From the NCBI RefSeq assembly GCF_003259525.1, contig NZ_QLLO01000010.1:1-64000 (forward strand): DNA of 64,000 bases. The letters run 5' to 3'. Numbering within the stretch: the stretch's first letter is position 1; each line of letters opens with the position of its first letter. The position numbers and the translations under genes are program-made. The notes beneath the pieces were generated by a model. It was not told where the DNA came from. It made no database searches and worked only from the letters and a program-made list of their open reading frames with translations. This DNA is from Olleya aquimaris. Lineage in GTDB: Bacteria; Bacteroidota; Bacteroidia; Flavobacteriales; Flavobacteriaceae. Shown in pieces: positions 12,366-16,207 of the stretch.

Positions 12366-13040
12366 TTATTTCCAAGTGACTATGTCATCAAAATCACGTC
12401 TTGATTTTGGAAATTCTGGATCTGCTTTTCTGTAACCAAAAGCTACCATAAACGATAAGCCGTATTTATCTGTATCTACTCCAAATTTTTCTCTTAATAA
12501 CGCTTCAGCTTGTTCTTGATGAAACCCTTCAATCGGACAACTATCAATACCTACCAATGCAGCAGCAGTCATCATATTACCTAAAGCAATGTAGGTTTGC
12601 TTAGATGACCAATCGAATAATTTTTTATCTGTATCTAAATCGAAATCACGCTCCTGAAATTCTCTATAAAATTTAGAATACATGTCTATCACATCTTCTG
12701 GCATTTGCTTGACATCTTTCATCATATGATTAATATATTCTGCGTCGTGTTTTACCATAGGTGCTTTCATACTTAATCCTAAAATAAAATGACTTGCGGT
12801 ATCTAATTTTAAAGGTGCTCCCCAAGCTACTGGTTTTAATGACTCGCGTAATTCTTTATCTTGAACAACAATAAAATGCCAAGGTTCGAATCCAAAAGAA
12901 CTTGGGGATAAATGTCCTGTTTTTAAAATGAAATTAATATCCTCCTCTGAAACTTTTTTAGTGACATCAAATTCTTTGGTAGCATGTCTATAATTAAATG
13001 CGTTTAAAATGTCTTCTTTTGCAATGTTTGGTGTAATCAT
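12366..13040 (-). CDS. NAD(P)H-dependent nitroreductase family flavoprotein
   Basis: 224 residues, typical of NfsB-like enzymes. N-terminal F-N-Y-R-H-A-T-K-E-F-D contains the FMN-phosphate-binding Arg. S-S-F-G-F-E-P-W-H-F-I-V-V is the characteristic FMN-binding stretch, and G-I-D-S-C-P-I-E-G-F near residue 165 and G-Y-R-K near the end fit the fold. It reduces nitro groups, quinones or related electrophiles with NAD(P)H. It is transcribed divergently from the HxlR regulator, and a matching operator lies over its promoter, so it is probably repressed until a reactive electrophile is sensed (inference from the YodB/YodC-type arrangement). Confidence 0.92.
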   Translation of the reverse strand: MITPNIAKEDILNAFNYRHATKEFDVTKKVSEEDINFILKTGHLSPSSFGFEPWHFIVVQDKELRESLKPVAWGAPLKLDTASHFILGLSMKAPMVKHDAEYINHMMKDVKQMPEDVIDMYSKFYREFQERDFDLDTDKKLFDWSSKQTYIALGNMMTAAALVGIDSCPIEGFHQEQAEALLREKFGVDTDKYGLSFMVAFGYRKADPEFPKSRRDFDDIVTWK

Positions 13041-13070
13041 TATTATATTTTTAAAAGTTTAAATTCAATA

Positions 13071-13089
13071 TACTATCAAAAGTATAGTA
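13071..13089. promoter_or_regulatory. HxlR operator candidate 1 (nitroreductase side)
   Basis: Inverted repeat TACTAT-N7-ATAGTA. It sits just downstream of, and close to, the probable -7 element of the nitroreductase promoter, where a bound dimer would block transcription. The same repeat with identical spacing recurs at 13210. Confidence 0.7.
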
Positions 13090-13090
13090 A

Positions 13091-13121
13091 CAAAAGTATG
13101 TTTAGTTTTAATGACTTGCAA
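13091..13121 (-). promoter_or_regulatory. Bacteroidetes-type promoter for the nitroreductase gene
   Basis: On the minus strand, TTG (13121-13119) is followed after 20 bases by TACTTTTG (13098-13091), matching the -33/-7 pattern TTG...TANNTTTG. A second TACTTTTG lies at 13084-13077 inside the operator. Confidence 0.6.
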
Positions 13122-13209
13122 TAACGGTCAAAAAGGATAGTATAAATTTACACTGTATTAAACAAGCAAATCCTTAATAAACACAGGTGTTTTAAGTAGA
13201 TGTTAAAAT

Positions 13210-13228
13210 TACTATAAAAAGTATAGTT
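13210..13228. promoter_or_regulatory. HxlR operator candidate 2 (regulator side)
   Basis: TACTAT-N7-ATAGTT, one base from a perfect copy of operator 1. It overlaps the -33 element of the regulator gene. A third half-like copy, AAGTATAGTA, lies at 13237-13246 between -33 and -7. Confidence 0.68.
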
Positions 13229-13257
13229 GTATAATTAAGTATAGTAATATATCTTTG
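13227..13257 (+). promoter_or_regulatory. Promoter of the HxlR-type regulator
   Basis: TTG (13227-13229), 20 bases, then TATCTTTG (13250-13257), an exact TANNTTTG. Both operator 2 and the third half-site overlap it, which fits autorepression. Confidence 0.65.
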
Positions 13258-13276
13258 TGTTTTAAAACAACATTAT

Positions 13277-13621
13277 ATGTATACATTTAAAGGTAAAGAA
13301 TACCCTTGTTGCGCTAGTTTAACCATGGGAGTCATCGGTGGAAAATGGAAAACTGTTATATTATATCACCTTATTGATGGACCTTTACGTTATAACGAAT
13401 TACGAAAAGAGATGCCTACAGTTACTGAGCGTACTTTAAGTTTGCAGTTAAAAACTTTAGAGGAAGATGGTATTGTAAAACGAAAAGTGTATACCACCAA
13501 ACCACCTTTAAAAGTAGAATACTCGTTAACCGATTTTGGAAAAACGCTAATTCCGTTAATTAAATCTATTGCAGATTGGGGCGTTTTTGTGATTGAGAAA
13601 AAAGGAGAAATTGAGGTATAA
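13277..13621 (+). CDS. HxlR family transcriptional regulator
   Basis: 114 residues, the normal length of a single-domain winged-helix HxlR protein. Core family motifs are visible: G-G-K-W-K-T-V-I-L-Y-H-L, G-P-L-R-Y-N-E-L-R, and E-R-T-L-S-L-Q-L-K-T-L-E-E-D-G-I-V-K-R, followed by Y-S-L-T-D-F-G-K-T-L. Two adjacent cysteines (residues 11-12, Y-P-C-C-A) occupy the N-terminal position of the redox-sensing Cys in YodB/HypR-like members, so thiol-based electrophile sensing is plausible. It binds as a dimer, which matches the inverted repeats in the divergent promoter region shared with the nitroreductase gene. Confidence 0.93.
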   Translation: MYTFKGKEYPCCASLTMGVIGGKWKTVILYHLIDGPLRYNELRKEMPTVTERTLSLQLKTLEEDGIVKRKVYTTKPPLKVEYSLTDFGKTLIPLIKSIADWGVFVIEKKGEIEV

Positions 13622-13987
13622 GAATTAATATTAGTTTTTAACTATACCATTCTACACACATCTTCACCACTACTTCACCCTCACAGAAAAAAAGTGTTCC
13701 ATTAACATTGTAGAAGAAACTTTTAGGTATAAATTTTTTAAAGAAACTAAAGTTTGCCAAAGCGCCAACTGGCTCATTCGCTAAAATAGTCCACAGGACT
13801 ATTTCTTAACGCTCTACCCTGCTTTTAACCAAATCGACAAAGGAGATTCACGATTTCGTTAATATAAAATAAAAATCAATGAGTAAAGATCAAGTTACAA
13901 AACGCAGAACATTATTGTACAAATGGATTTATTAGCTATAATGTAGTAAAATCAAATTGCTAGGATAACACCAAAACCCAGACTAAA
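13622..13987. other. Non-coding region with a hairpin, possible dispersed element
   Basis: No supportable gene in about 365 bases. It contains a 9-bp hairpin AAATAGTCC (13784-13792) / GGACTATTT (13796-13804) with a 3-nt ACA loop, embedded in a GC-richer stretch (about 13756-13860) unlike the AT-rich flanks. There is no T tract after the hairpin. The stretch looks like a decayed or non-coding repeat; this is inference. Confidence 0.45.
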
Positions 13988-15205
13988 TTATAAATCTTCG
14001 TATTCAAGATCTAACGGAAGTAAGATGGTATAGCTAACACCTTCGCCAGGTACAGATTTTGCTTCCATAGCACCTAAATGTTTTTCAACAATTTGCTTAC
14101 AATACGCCAGACCAATATTTACCATATTTAAATGCTGTGTCTTTTGTAAGATTTTATCTAGTTTATAGTTAAATCCTAGACCATTGTCTGTATAAATAAT
14201 TTTTACAAATTTTTTATACTGGTATTTTTCGTTATTATTAAAATAATAATTCTTTACCGTTTTAACAGCTGTAATGGTAATGTTTAGTATGTTATTTTCT
14301 GGATTTTGTTCCTTTATAGAGTTACGTAGCAATTCTATAAAAAGGCGTCTTAGCATTTTTTCGTTTCCTAGTAATATAATATTGTTTTTGGGGTAAACTA
14401 TTTCTACTTGTTTATTGTCTTTTAGCTGTAAAGCATTTGATGCACTAATTATAATGTCGTTTAGAGCTATAGAACTATAGTTGAGTTTTGCACGTTCTAA
14501 CTCCTTATACCTTAATAAGGTTAACAATATTTCGCTCATGTATGTATTATAACCTATAATTTTGTTTAAACGATCTTTAATTTCGCTTGGCAATTCTTTA
14601 AATTTAGTGAGTACATAATCACTCATAAATATAGATTTACGTAATGGTTCTTGAAGATCATGTGCAATAAGTTTATATACTTCCTGTTGCTGTTCTTTTA
14701 GTAACTTTACTTCTCGGTATTTTAATTCTAAAATAGTTTGCTGTTCTTGTAACTTATTTTTAGCTTTTGTAAGCTCTACGTTTTCTGCTAACGCAACTTC
14801 TGCTGCTTTTTTGGCATCTAAAAGTTCTTTTTCAAATTTATTTCGATTTGAAATTTCGATACCACCACAAAGTATTTCTACTTCACCATTATTTTGCTTT
14901 ACTTCCACATTTAATAACGCAGGTATTTGCTTGTCGACACCTTTAAATACAAGGTAAATTTCGCGAGCAGAGTTTTGCATTTTAATTAAGGGATAAAAAT
15001 GTGTTTGGTAAAATATTTTACTACCTACGGTAAGTAAATCTTCCAATTGGCAACCTATAACCTGCTCTGCTTCTACTCCTAATTTTGTTCGTAATTCAAG
15101 ATTCATTTTCATAATTTTTCCGGTGTCGGAAATAGAAAATAAAAAGCATGGAGTCTCCTCAAAGATACTTTGCCAGGACGATTGATTTGTAGAGTTATGA
15201 TTAAT
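13988..15205 (-). CDS. PAS-domain sensor histidine kinase, partner of the RsbQ-like hydrolase; non-canonical start
   Basis: The open frame runs from 15217. The first ATG (15112) falls inside the PAS domain, after the conserved-looking F-L-F-S-I-S-D-T-G-K-I, so a start there would delete the first PAS strands. No ATG, GTG, TTG or CTG occurs in frame upstream of it; the best candidate is ATT 15205-15203, which overlaps the hydrolase stop (ATTAA). From ATT the protein has 405 residues: PAS, a coiled coil, a HisKA-type helix with I-A-H-D-L-Q-E-P-L-R, then HATPase_c (N box L-L-R-N-S-I, G1 Y-T-D-N-G-L-G-F, G2 G-E-G-V-S-Y). There is no membrane segment, so it is cytoplasmic. A +1 frameshift from the hydrolase gene, or a start at ATG with a clipped PAS, are the alternatives. 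Confidence 0.8.
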   Translation of the reverse strand: MNHNSTNQSSWQSIFEETPCFLFSISDTGKIMKMNLELRTKLGVEAEQVIGCQLEDLLTVGSKIFYQTHFYPLIKMQNSAREIYLVFKGVDKQIPALLNVEVKQNNGEVEILCGGIEISNRNKFEKELLDAKKAAEVALAENVELTKAKNKLQEQQTILELKYREVKLLKEQQQEVYKLIAHDLQEPLRKSIFMSDYVLTKFKELPSEIKDRLNKIIGYNTYMSEILLTLLRYKELERAKLNYSSIALNDIIISASNALQLKDNKQVEIVYPKNNIILLGNEKMLRRLFIELLRNSIKEQNPENNILNITITAVKTVKNYYFNNNEKYQYKKFVKIIYTDNGLGFNYKLDKILQKTQHLNMVNIGLAYCKQIVEKHLGAMEAKSVPGEGVSYTILLPLDLEYEDL

Positions 15206-16004
15206 GATCGTGCGTTTTTAGATAATTTTTTATAATGGCTATAGTTTCTTTTGGATGACTTAAATGGGGACAATGACCTGTCGCCTTCATTTTCACAAAT
15301 GTACTGTCTTGAATTTGATTGTGGATATATTGCCCTACTGTATCTGGTGCAATTGCATCTTCAGAACACTGCATGACCAAACACGGTTTTGAAAGCTGAC
15401 TGAGATCTTCTCTATTGTCTGAGAAAAAAGTGACTTCGGCAAACTTACGTGTAATGATTGGATCTGTAGAACAGAAACTATCTTGAAGCTCTTTAGTTAA
15501 CTCAGGCTTGTCTTCATTTTTCATAACCACAGGTGCTAAATATGTTGCCCAACCTAAATAATTATTATCCATGACATCTAATAAGCCTTCTAGGTCTTGA
15601 CGTGAAAAACCGCCTAAATAGTTAGTATCATTTACATAACATGCTGATGGTCCAATAAAAATTAAATTAGAGAAAAAATTTGGCTGTTCTATAGCTGCCA
15701 ATACACCTATCATACAACTCACACTGTGTCCAACAAATGTAACATCTTCTAGTTGAAGTGTATTGCATATTTCTAGGACGTCTTGTGCATAGCCTTGTAA
15801 CTCAGAATAGCGTTCTGCATGGTAAGCAGATAGGTCCGATTTTCCGCAACCAACATAATCAAATACAACAATTTTAAAGTCATCTTCAAATGCCGGTATT
15901 ATAAAACGCCACATGTTTTGATCACATCCAAATCCATGTGCTAACAGCATTGTTTTTTTACCTTGACCAAGAATCTTAACATTGTTACGTTTAATAATAT
16001 TCAT
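15201..16004 (-). CDS. RsbQ-like alpha/beta hydrolase
   Basis: 267 residues, closely matching the remembered Bacillus RsbQ pattern over its length: H-G-F-G-C-D-Q-N-M-W, F-D-Y-V-G-C-G-K-S-D-L, G-Y-A-Q-D-V-L, the nucleophile elbow G-H-S-V-S (Ser94), F-C-S-T-D-P-I-I, F-F-S-D-N-R-E-D-L, Asp216 in S-E-D-A-I-A-P, and His244 in G-H-C-P-H. RsbQ is a cytoplasmic hydrolase that is needed to activate the PAS domain of its partner RsbP, possibly by making or delivering a small hydrophobic ligand. Here the partner encoded directly downstream is a PAS histidine kinase instead of the RsbP phosphatase. The two genes overlap. Confidence 0.92.
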   Translation of the reverse strand: MNIIKRNNVKILGQGKKTMLLAHGFGCDQNMWRFIIPAFEDDFKIVVFDYVGCGKSDLSAYHAERYSELQGYAQDVLEICNTLQLEDVTFVGHSVSCMIGVLAAIEQPNFFSNLIFIGPSACYVNDTNYLGGFSRQDLEGLLDVMDNNYLGWATYLAPVVMKNEDKPELTKELQDSFCSTDPIITRKFAEVTFFSDNREDLSQLSKPCLVMQCSEDAIAPDTVGQYIHNQIQDSTFVKMKATGHCPHLSHPKETIAIIKNYLKTHDH

Positions 16005-16207
16005 AGTCCTATTTTATCTAAGTTAAAATTAATGTTTTTTTTTATTTAACCTAAAGAAGTAAAGAAATTATAGCCTAAGTTTTTATATGTGTGTTTTAAA
16101 TCAGTATTGATTATATATTTGCTAATTGTGATTAGCTAAATAATACTATTATAAAAAAAAATCACACTAATTTTAATTAGCATATTTCCCAAAACTTAGT
16201 TTTTTAA

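Follow-up and report, generated by a model that had tools for sequence, protein, structure and literature searches.

A conserved ATT that overlaps the stop codon of an RsbQ-type hydrolase gene is the probable start of a PAS histidine kinase in Olleya aquimaris and related flavobacteria

Where does a histidine kinase begin when its reading frame offers no canonical start codon ahead of its first domain? The question is raised by a pair of genes of Olleya aquimaris, found in the first 64,000 nucleotides of contig NZ_QLLO01000010.1 (this whole stretch is called the window here). Both genes lie on the reverse strand, with an RsbQ-type hydrolase first and a PAS histidine kinase after it. The open frame of the kinase spans 15217 to 13988, with an in-frame TAA at 15220-15218 just above it. 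From 15217 onwards it reads AAA CGC ACG ATC ATT AAT CAT AAC, and not a single ATG, GTG, TTG or CTG occurs in it before an ATG at 15112. The ATT at 15205-15203 and the stop codon TAA of the hydrolase at 15203-15201 have one base in common, forming the overlap ATTAA. A sequence-only reading of this DNA had pointed out the missing start and had named this ATT as a plausible substitute. Its coordinates, strands and frames were all right, and conservation of the ATT in nine of nine related modules supports it as the likely start. The features of the locus are listed below.

15201-16004, reverse strand: RsbQ-type alpha/beta hydrolase of 267 amino acids, from ATG 16004 to TAA 15201, with Ser94, Asp216 and His244
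15201-15203, reverse strand: stop codon TAA of the hydrolase, whose T is the final base of the proposed kinase start ATT
15203-15205, reverse strand: proposed kinase start ATT, invariant in the nine of nine clade modules that share this layout
15218-15220, reverse strand: in-frame TAA just above the open kinase frame, the same in all nine modules sharing the layout
13988-15205, reverse strand: PAS histidine kinase of 405 amino acids counted from the ATT, stop codon within the coordinates
14855-15184, reverse strand: PAS domain, with a helix at residues 8-17, strands at 21-26 and at 30-34 and a final strand up to 117, from AlphaFold2, NCBIfam and Pfam
15110-15112, reverse strand: earliest ATG in the kinase frame, at residue 32, which lies within the second PAS strand
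14660-14662, reverse strand: His182 in HDLQEPL, the presumed phosphoacceptor, invariant in an alignment of 24 kinases (A1)

The identity of the first protein is clear. In a sequence search of the structure database, the best solved match of the hydrolase was Bacillus RsbQ (1wom, E 3.7e-103, residues 2-265), and this full-length similarity to RsbQ is accompanied by the catalytic triad Ser94-Asp216-His244. The hydrolase had been called a close RsbQ look-alike with exactly these three residues, and both the likeness and the triad positions held. The PAS protein is encoded directly downstream of the hydrolase and carries its PAS domain at the most N-terminal position, which is the bipartite layout of RsbQ-PAS modules. 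In Bacillus subtilis, activation of sigma-B when energy is limiting requires both RsbQ and RsbP, and the pairing of RsbQ with a PAS domain has been described as a module to which a phosphatase, kinase or cyclase output is attached (PMC3183031). That hydrolase-PAS modules with varied outputs were already described had likewise been recognised, and the kinase output was catalogued in 2011 (PMC3183031). The locus of O. aquimaris resembles these modules in having an RsbQ homologue directly upstream, an N-terminal PAS domain and then an output domain, and kinase outputs from Gram-negative bacteria are among those catalogued. It is unlike the modules described in that its kinase has no canonical start; the main text of PMC3183031 mentions neither start codon nor overlap.

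The second protein is a histidine kinase, the output that had been proposed for it. It matched the Pfam family HATPase_c at 37.3 bits (cut-off 26.4) and the NCBIfam model sensory_box at 25.9 bits (cut-off 22.9); the Pfam PAS match falls slightly under its cut-off, and no receiver domain is among the kinase's Pfam matches. A profile made from the 24 aligned kinases (A1) matches solved histidine kinases, the best of them being 8f71 (E 1.8e-43). The protein displays the motifs HDLQEPL (182), LLRNS (292), DNGLGF (340) and IGLAYC (364), which we take to be the phosphoacceptor histidine, the N box and the G boxes, and which mark it as a member of the histidine kinase family. In an AlphaFold2 model built from the same 24 kinases (mean pLDDT 81.2, pTM 0.54), a helix at residues 8-17 and strands at 21-26 and 30-34 are followed by PAS-like elements up to residue 117, a long helix and the kinase core. 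Searched alone by sequence against the PDB, the PAS domain matched no RsbP and no convincing PAS entry. The residues required in the PAS domain of B. subtilis RsbP are L48, F55, Y59, E72 and P86 (PMC3183031). With a constant offset of 10, set by eye, they would correspond to L58, F65, H69, E82 and P95 of the window (the last being one off); also by eye, the A1 columns of L58, H69 and P95 are nearly invariant and that of E82 is invariant. Ten neighbour proteins (from the window, L065, L066 and L070) were run through Pfam and included no response regulator.

We collected hydrolase-PAS modules from whole genomes and from a set of named genomes, covering the best 80 of 590 relatives and family, order and genus searches of about 400 genomes each, drawn from larger groups. 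This gave 128 loci (L038-L164 and the window). Eight were dropped for lack of a detected PAS kinase downstream of the hydrolase, and 14 of the remaining 120 had a hydrolase gene already represented by another row, which left 106 distinct modules; two of these, with hydrolase identity below 50%, were omitted from the hydrolase tree. A start was counted as canonical under a lenient rule, by which any ATG, GTG or TTG qualifies that lies no more than 45 codons ahead of the conserved PAS proline. By this rule a canonical start is in range in 93 of the 106 modules, and 13 are without one. Eleven of those 13 fall in a single flavobacterial clade of 27 rows (support 100/100), the other 16 rows of which have canonical starts.

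This clade contains a subclade of ten rows (support 95/81), made up of the window, its Olleya sister, Bizionia arctica, Gelidibacter sediminis, G441, G370, G830, G1131, G1000 and L072. The ATT is found at the identical place in nine of the ten, as ATTAA in seven and as ATTAG in two. These nine modules come from five genera (two from Olleya, one from Bizionia, two from Gelidibacter including G441, three from Flavobacterium, namely G830, G1131 and G1000, whose genus also contains two Flavobacterium records according to identical hydrolase genes, and that of G370), and all of them share the same layout: an in-frame TAA, then four variable codons, then the invariant ATT overlapping the hydrolase stop. 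The tenth member, L072 (Flavobacterium sp. 7A), has an ATG located 24 bases downstream of where its hydrolase stop codon starts. Aligning the region in related flavobacteria had been suggested as a check, with a normal ATG in the relatives as the outcome that would speak for an error or a local mutation; the overlap and the missing start are kept in nine of the ten, and L072 is the member with an ATG. With this start retained by several related genera, a sequencing error is unlikely. One of the nine, L157 (G1000), has besides the ATT a GTG at +37, which lies five codons ahead of the PAS proline and makes the module canonical by the rule; it could use this GTG instead of the ATT.

Outside the nine, the startless sisters L067 and L158 have an ATC 18 and 16 codons, respectively, ahead of the PAS proline, the ATT of the window being 18 codons ahead of it, and F. 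rivuli L070, which lies outside the ten-row subclade, has both ATA and ATT. Two sisters of startless modules, L159 and L160, have a GTG in range. Of the two startless rows beyond the 27-row clade, L128 has a disrupted frame and is probably not genuinely startless. The other, L116 from Pyrinomonadaceae, has an ATA; an AAGGAG lies eight bases upstream of this ATA near the hydrolase stop, and the PAS protein may start there. Overall, the module is patchy, being present in two of the ten genomes of the genus and in 24 of 397 genomes of the family sample at E 1e-40. Among the matches listed by a search with the kinase in 99 genomes (its own included), one was close, that in G002 (94%), a genome of the same genus; the rest were far weaker and mostly to the kinase core alone.

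How much weight can the shared ATT bear? In the window, AT stands before a TAA or TAG stop in six of the 50 open reading frames of at least 150 amino acids, so one such overlap on its own carries no meaning. Furthermore, the third base of the ATT is fixed by the stop codon, and hence only its first two bases count as independent evidence. On the hydrolase tree these two bases underwent no change, whereas every one of the 11 sites between -13 and -3 changed one to four times (mean 2.6); the sites from -17 to -14, which comprise the in-frame TAA and the next A, were also unchanged. The ATT is the sole invariant column among the first 18 columns of the nine aligned kinases. Elsewhere in these proteins isoleucine is encoded by ATT 154 times, by ATA 124 times and by ATC 52 times. 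The combination of no canonical start (save for the additional GTG of L157) and a conserved ATT in nine of nine modules is what the sequence of a gene of the AUH start class would look like. From these comparisons of sequences, we conclude that the absence of a canonical start is real, that the ATT is a conserved and likely non-canonical start, and that the kinase belongs to a known kind of sensor module.

Several readings compete with a start at the ATT. One, raised by the sequence-only reading itself, is a +1 ribosomal frameshift at the hydrolase stop (CAT or TAT followed by TAA), which would produce a hydrolase-PAS-kinase fusion and make a separate start needless. The kinase frame is indeed the +1 frame of the hydrolase and overlaps it, and the invariant (C/T)ATTA(A/G) of all nine modules is a pattern that a shift site would also give. 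However, a tRNA paired with CAU or UAU is unable to pair again with AUU. The startless sisters L067 and L158 end in GCA TAG and GTC TAA, so the startless members have neither a shift site nor a shift-prone pre-stop codon in common, and none of CAT, TAT, GCA and GTC re-pairs after a +1 slip. The 93 of 106 modules with canonical starts in range point to mostly ordinary separate starts, and the RNA at the junction folds only weakly better than shuffled sequences (z -2.06, with 8 of 200 as good). The varied pre-stop codons and the prevalence of separate starts lead us to regard a frameshift as improbable. It is very improbable that the kinase begins at ATG 15112 or 15106 and does without the first PAS elements. 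These are the starts that annotation by common start codons would pick, 15112 being the first canonical one, and the Met ATG of the KMN/RMN motif is kept in nine of nine kinases. Against this, the codons above them change in the manner of coding sequence and form the first PAS strands in the structure model. Among the nine kinases, the stretch between the PC motif and residue 33 has mismatches of 0.25, 0.19 and 0.49 at codon positions 1, 2 and 3, position 3 being the most variable, as it is in the rest of the PAS domain (0.30, 0.23 and 0.54) and in the kinase core (0.39, 0.28 and 0.58). For residues 2-33, dN/dS is 0.11-0.34 in five of six pairs of distant members (dS computable, near saturation). 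P19, invariant in the 24 aligned kinases, and F23, nearly invariant in them, both lie above the first ATG and would be lost. The first PAS strands had been read as lying upstream of this ATG, and the model agrees, with helix 1, strand 1 and the start of strand 2 placed there; a start at 15112 would, according to the model, delete the first helix, the first strand and part of the second.

It is highly improbable that the kinase starts at a different one of the first five codons, for example ATC 15208-15206 or ACG, or at a mixture of codons. The ATC directly precedes the ATT in the window and in L044, and L067 and L158 have an ATC without a following ATT, but in the remaining seven of the nine modules the position before the ATT is occupied by CTC, CTT, CCT or TTT. 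Finally, the kinase might be decaying and be poorly or not expressed, the missing start being part of this decay. Two of the nine kinases are damaged: that of the Olleya sister (L064) has an in-frame TAG at codon 101, near other clustered changes, and that of L042 (genus Gelidibacter) carries a TAG at codon 67 and altered G boxes and lacks the Pro-Leu that normally follows HDLQE, its hydrolase frame being intact. This damage suggests that the kinase is dispensable somewhere. Nevertheless, seven of the nine frames are uninterrupted and the position of the start is kept across genera. Between the window and L064, selection on the kinase can still be seen: dN/dS is 0.14 for the kinase and 0.11 for the hydrolase, and it is 0.13 for the part of the kinase that follows the TAG position. 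Decay is the least probable of these readings.

The reading that we favour is a two-protein sensor of an RsbQ-type hydrolase and a PAS kinase, in which the kinase begins at AUU; we consider it likely that this start is used, probably coupled to termination of the hydrolase and restrained by IF3, and that there is less kinase than hydrolase. Use of the AUU, termination-reinitiation, IF3 sensitivity, an excess of hydrolase and activation of the PAS domain by the hydrolase are what we infer for this pair. The initiator tRNA would read AUU to begin the kinase. Because of the AUUAA overlap, a ribosome or 30S subunit finishing the hydrolase would be the likely source of initiation. IF3 would discriminate against AUU and let only a small fraction of ribosomes start, so that the hydrolase would exceed the kinase. 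The hydrolase would then supply an activity to the PAS domain of the kinase, following the RsbQ-RsbP model of B. subtilis. The start had been expected to set the ratio of kinase to hydrolase; its possible relevance for this ratio stands, as a weak overlapping start may keep the kinase scarce, and the frameshift route to it is disfavoured.

Some of these steps can be set beside what is known of translation in bacteria. Bacteroidetes are described as lacking SD sequences and as favouring an A at -3 and at -6, and in F. johnsoniae an A at -3 promotes initiation (PMC6847099). Among the nine ATT modules, an A stands at -6 in seven and at -3 in just two (the window and L044), which suggests that context alone is not strong and makes coupling plausible. 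In E. coli, overproduction of IF3 lowers reinitiation almost threefold (PMC2268962), and in S. aureus grown in poor medium non-canonical AUU/AUA starts are about 10% as active as AUG (PMC13009471).

A second gene points in the same direction. We compared infC, which encodes IF3, in the genome of the window and in 18 flavobacterial genomes chosen for carrying the module. In all 19, no ATG, GTG or TTG precedes the matched IF3 region, and an ATA is invariant within G(C/T)C ATA GCA; a GTG or TTG lies 12-14 codons inside the matched region in six of the 19. The infC gene starts at AUU in E. coli (cited in PMC2268962) and at AUA in S. aureus (PMC13009471). The lack of a canonical start in all 19 genomes together with the retained ATA suggests that these flavobacteria seem to use the AUH start class. 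More tentatively, AUH starts might constitute a regulatory class of Flavobacteriaceae that extends beyond infC, in which the level of the kinase and the gain of signalling would follow IF3 and the capacity for reinitiation, and a two-component sensor would thereby be tied directly to the condition of the translation machinery; we offer this as a possibility that we rather doubt.

This arrangement is reminiscent of known systems and departs from each of them. In Streptomyces, sigR has a GTC start that is repressed by IF3 and sets the balance of sigma and anti-sigma factor (PMC5472188). As in sigR-rsrA, a non-canonical start in a stress-signalling pair would set the ratio of the partners, which for the present pair is our expectation. 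In sigR-rsrA, the weak GTC is on the first gene and is accompanied by an extensive ribosome binding site (PMC5472188). Here, in contrast, the AUU is on the second gene and overlaps the stop of the first, in a phylum described as lacking SD sequences. In E. coli, infC and pcnB reportedly both start at AUU. In S. aureus, ccpN starts at AUA and cvfC1 at AUU, both at sites conserved among relatives (PMC13009471). Together with those E. coli genes and with infC, ccpN and cvfC1 of S. aureus (PMC13009471), the kinase would belong to the inefficient AUU/AUA start class. Unlike the kinase, the S. aureus sites have extended SD motifs, and no overlapping coupled kinase gene is described in the available text of PMC13009471. 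The overlap itself resembles the ATGA and TGATG termination-reinitiation pairs, in which stop and start share bases (PMC6728339). It differs from them in using ATT, and the string ATTA does not occur in the available text of PMC6728339. Among the titles and abstract openings listed by a search of open-access literature there was no AUU-start kinase, no non-canonical infC start in Bacteroidetes and no case of coupling in Flavobacterium.

These findings have implications for annotation and for the study of weak starts. Gene callers rely on ATG, GTG and TTG, which suggests that callers accepting only common starts would record these kinases too short, without their first PAS strands. The non-canonical starts of sigR and of S. 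aureus lie behind strong ribosome binding sites (PMC5472188, PMC13009471). A conserved AUU joined to an upstream stop, in a phylum described as having no SD sequences, offers a concrete and easily mutated site at which start choice and reinitiation can be studied, and the same site lets one ask whether a weak start sets the stoichiometry of a sensor.

Some further observations concern the Olleya sister and the surroundings of the pair. Positions 13947-16113 of the window and 3892-6058 of L064 are 95% similar, and this similarity sets in near 16113, a short way upstream of the two genes. The DNA of L064 further upstream matches nothing in the window, which suggests that the module moved or that its neighbourhood was rearranged. 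Within the kinase, the first 100 codons (14906-15205) differ from those of L064 at 3 silent sites, compared with 34 silent differences in the other 304 codons (Fisher p 0.015; p 0.10 when the first 100 codons are set against the hydrolase). Such a scarcity of silent changes could be a sign of a regulatory RNA, a reading that comparisons with the other genera do not help to judge, silent sites being near saturation in them. Beside the kinase, at 12366-13621 of the window, an HxlR-type regulator and a nitroreductase are encoded in divergent orientation.
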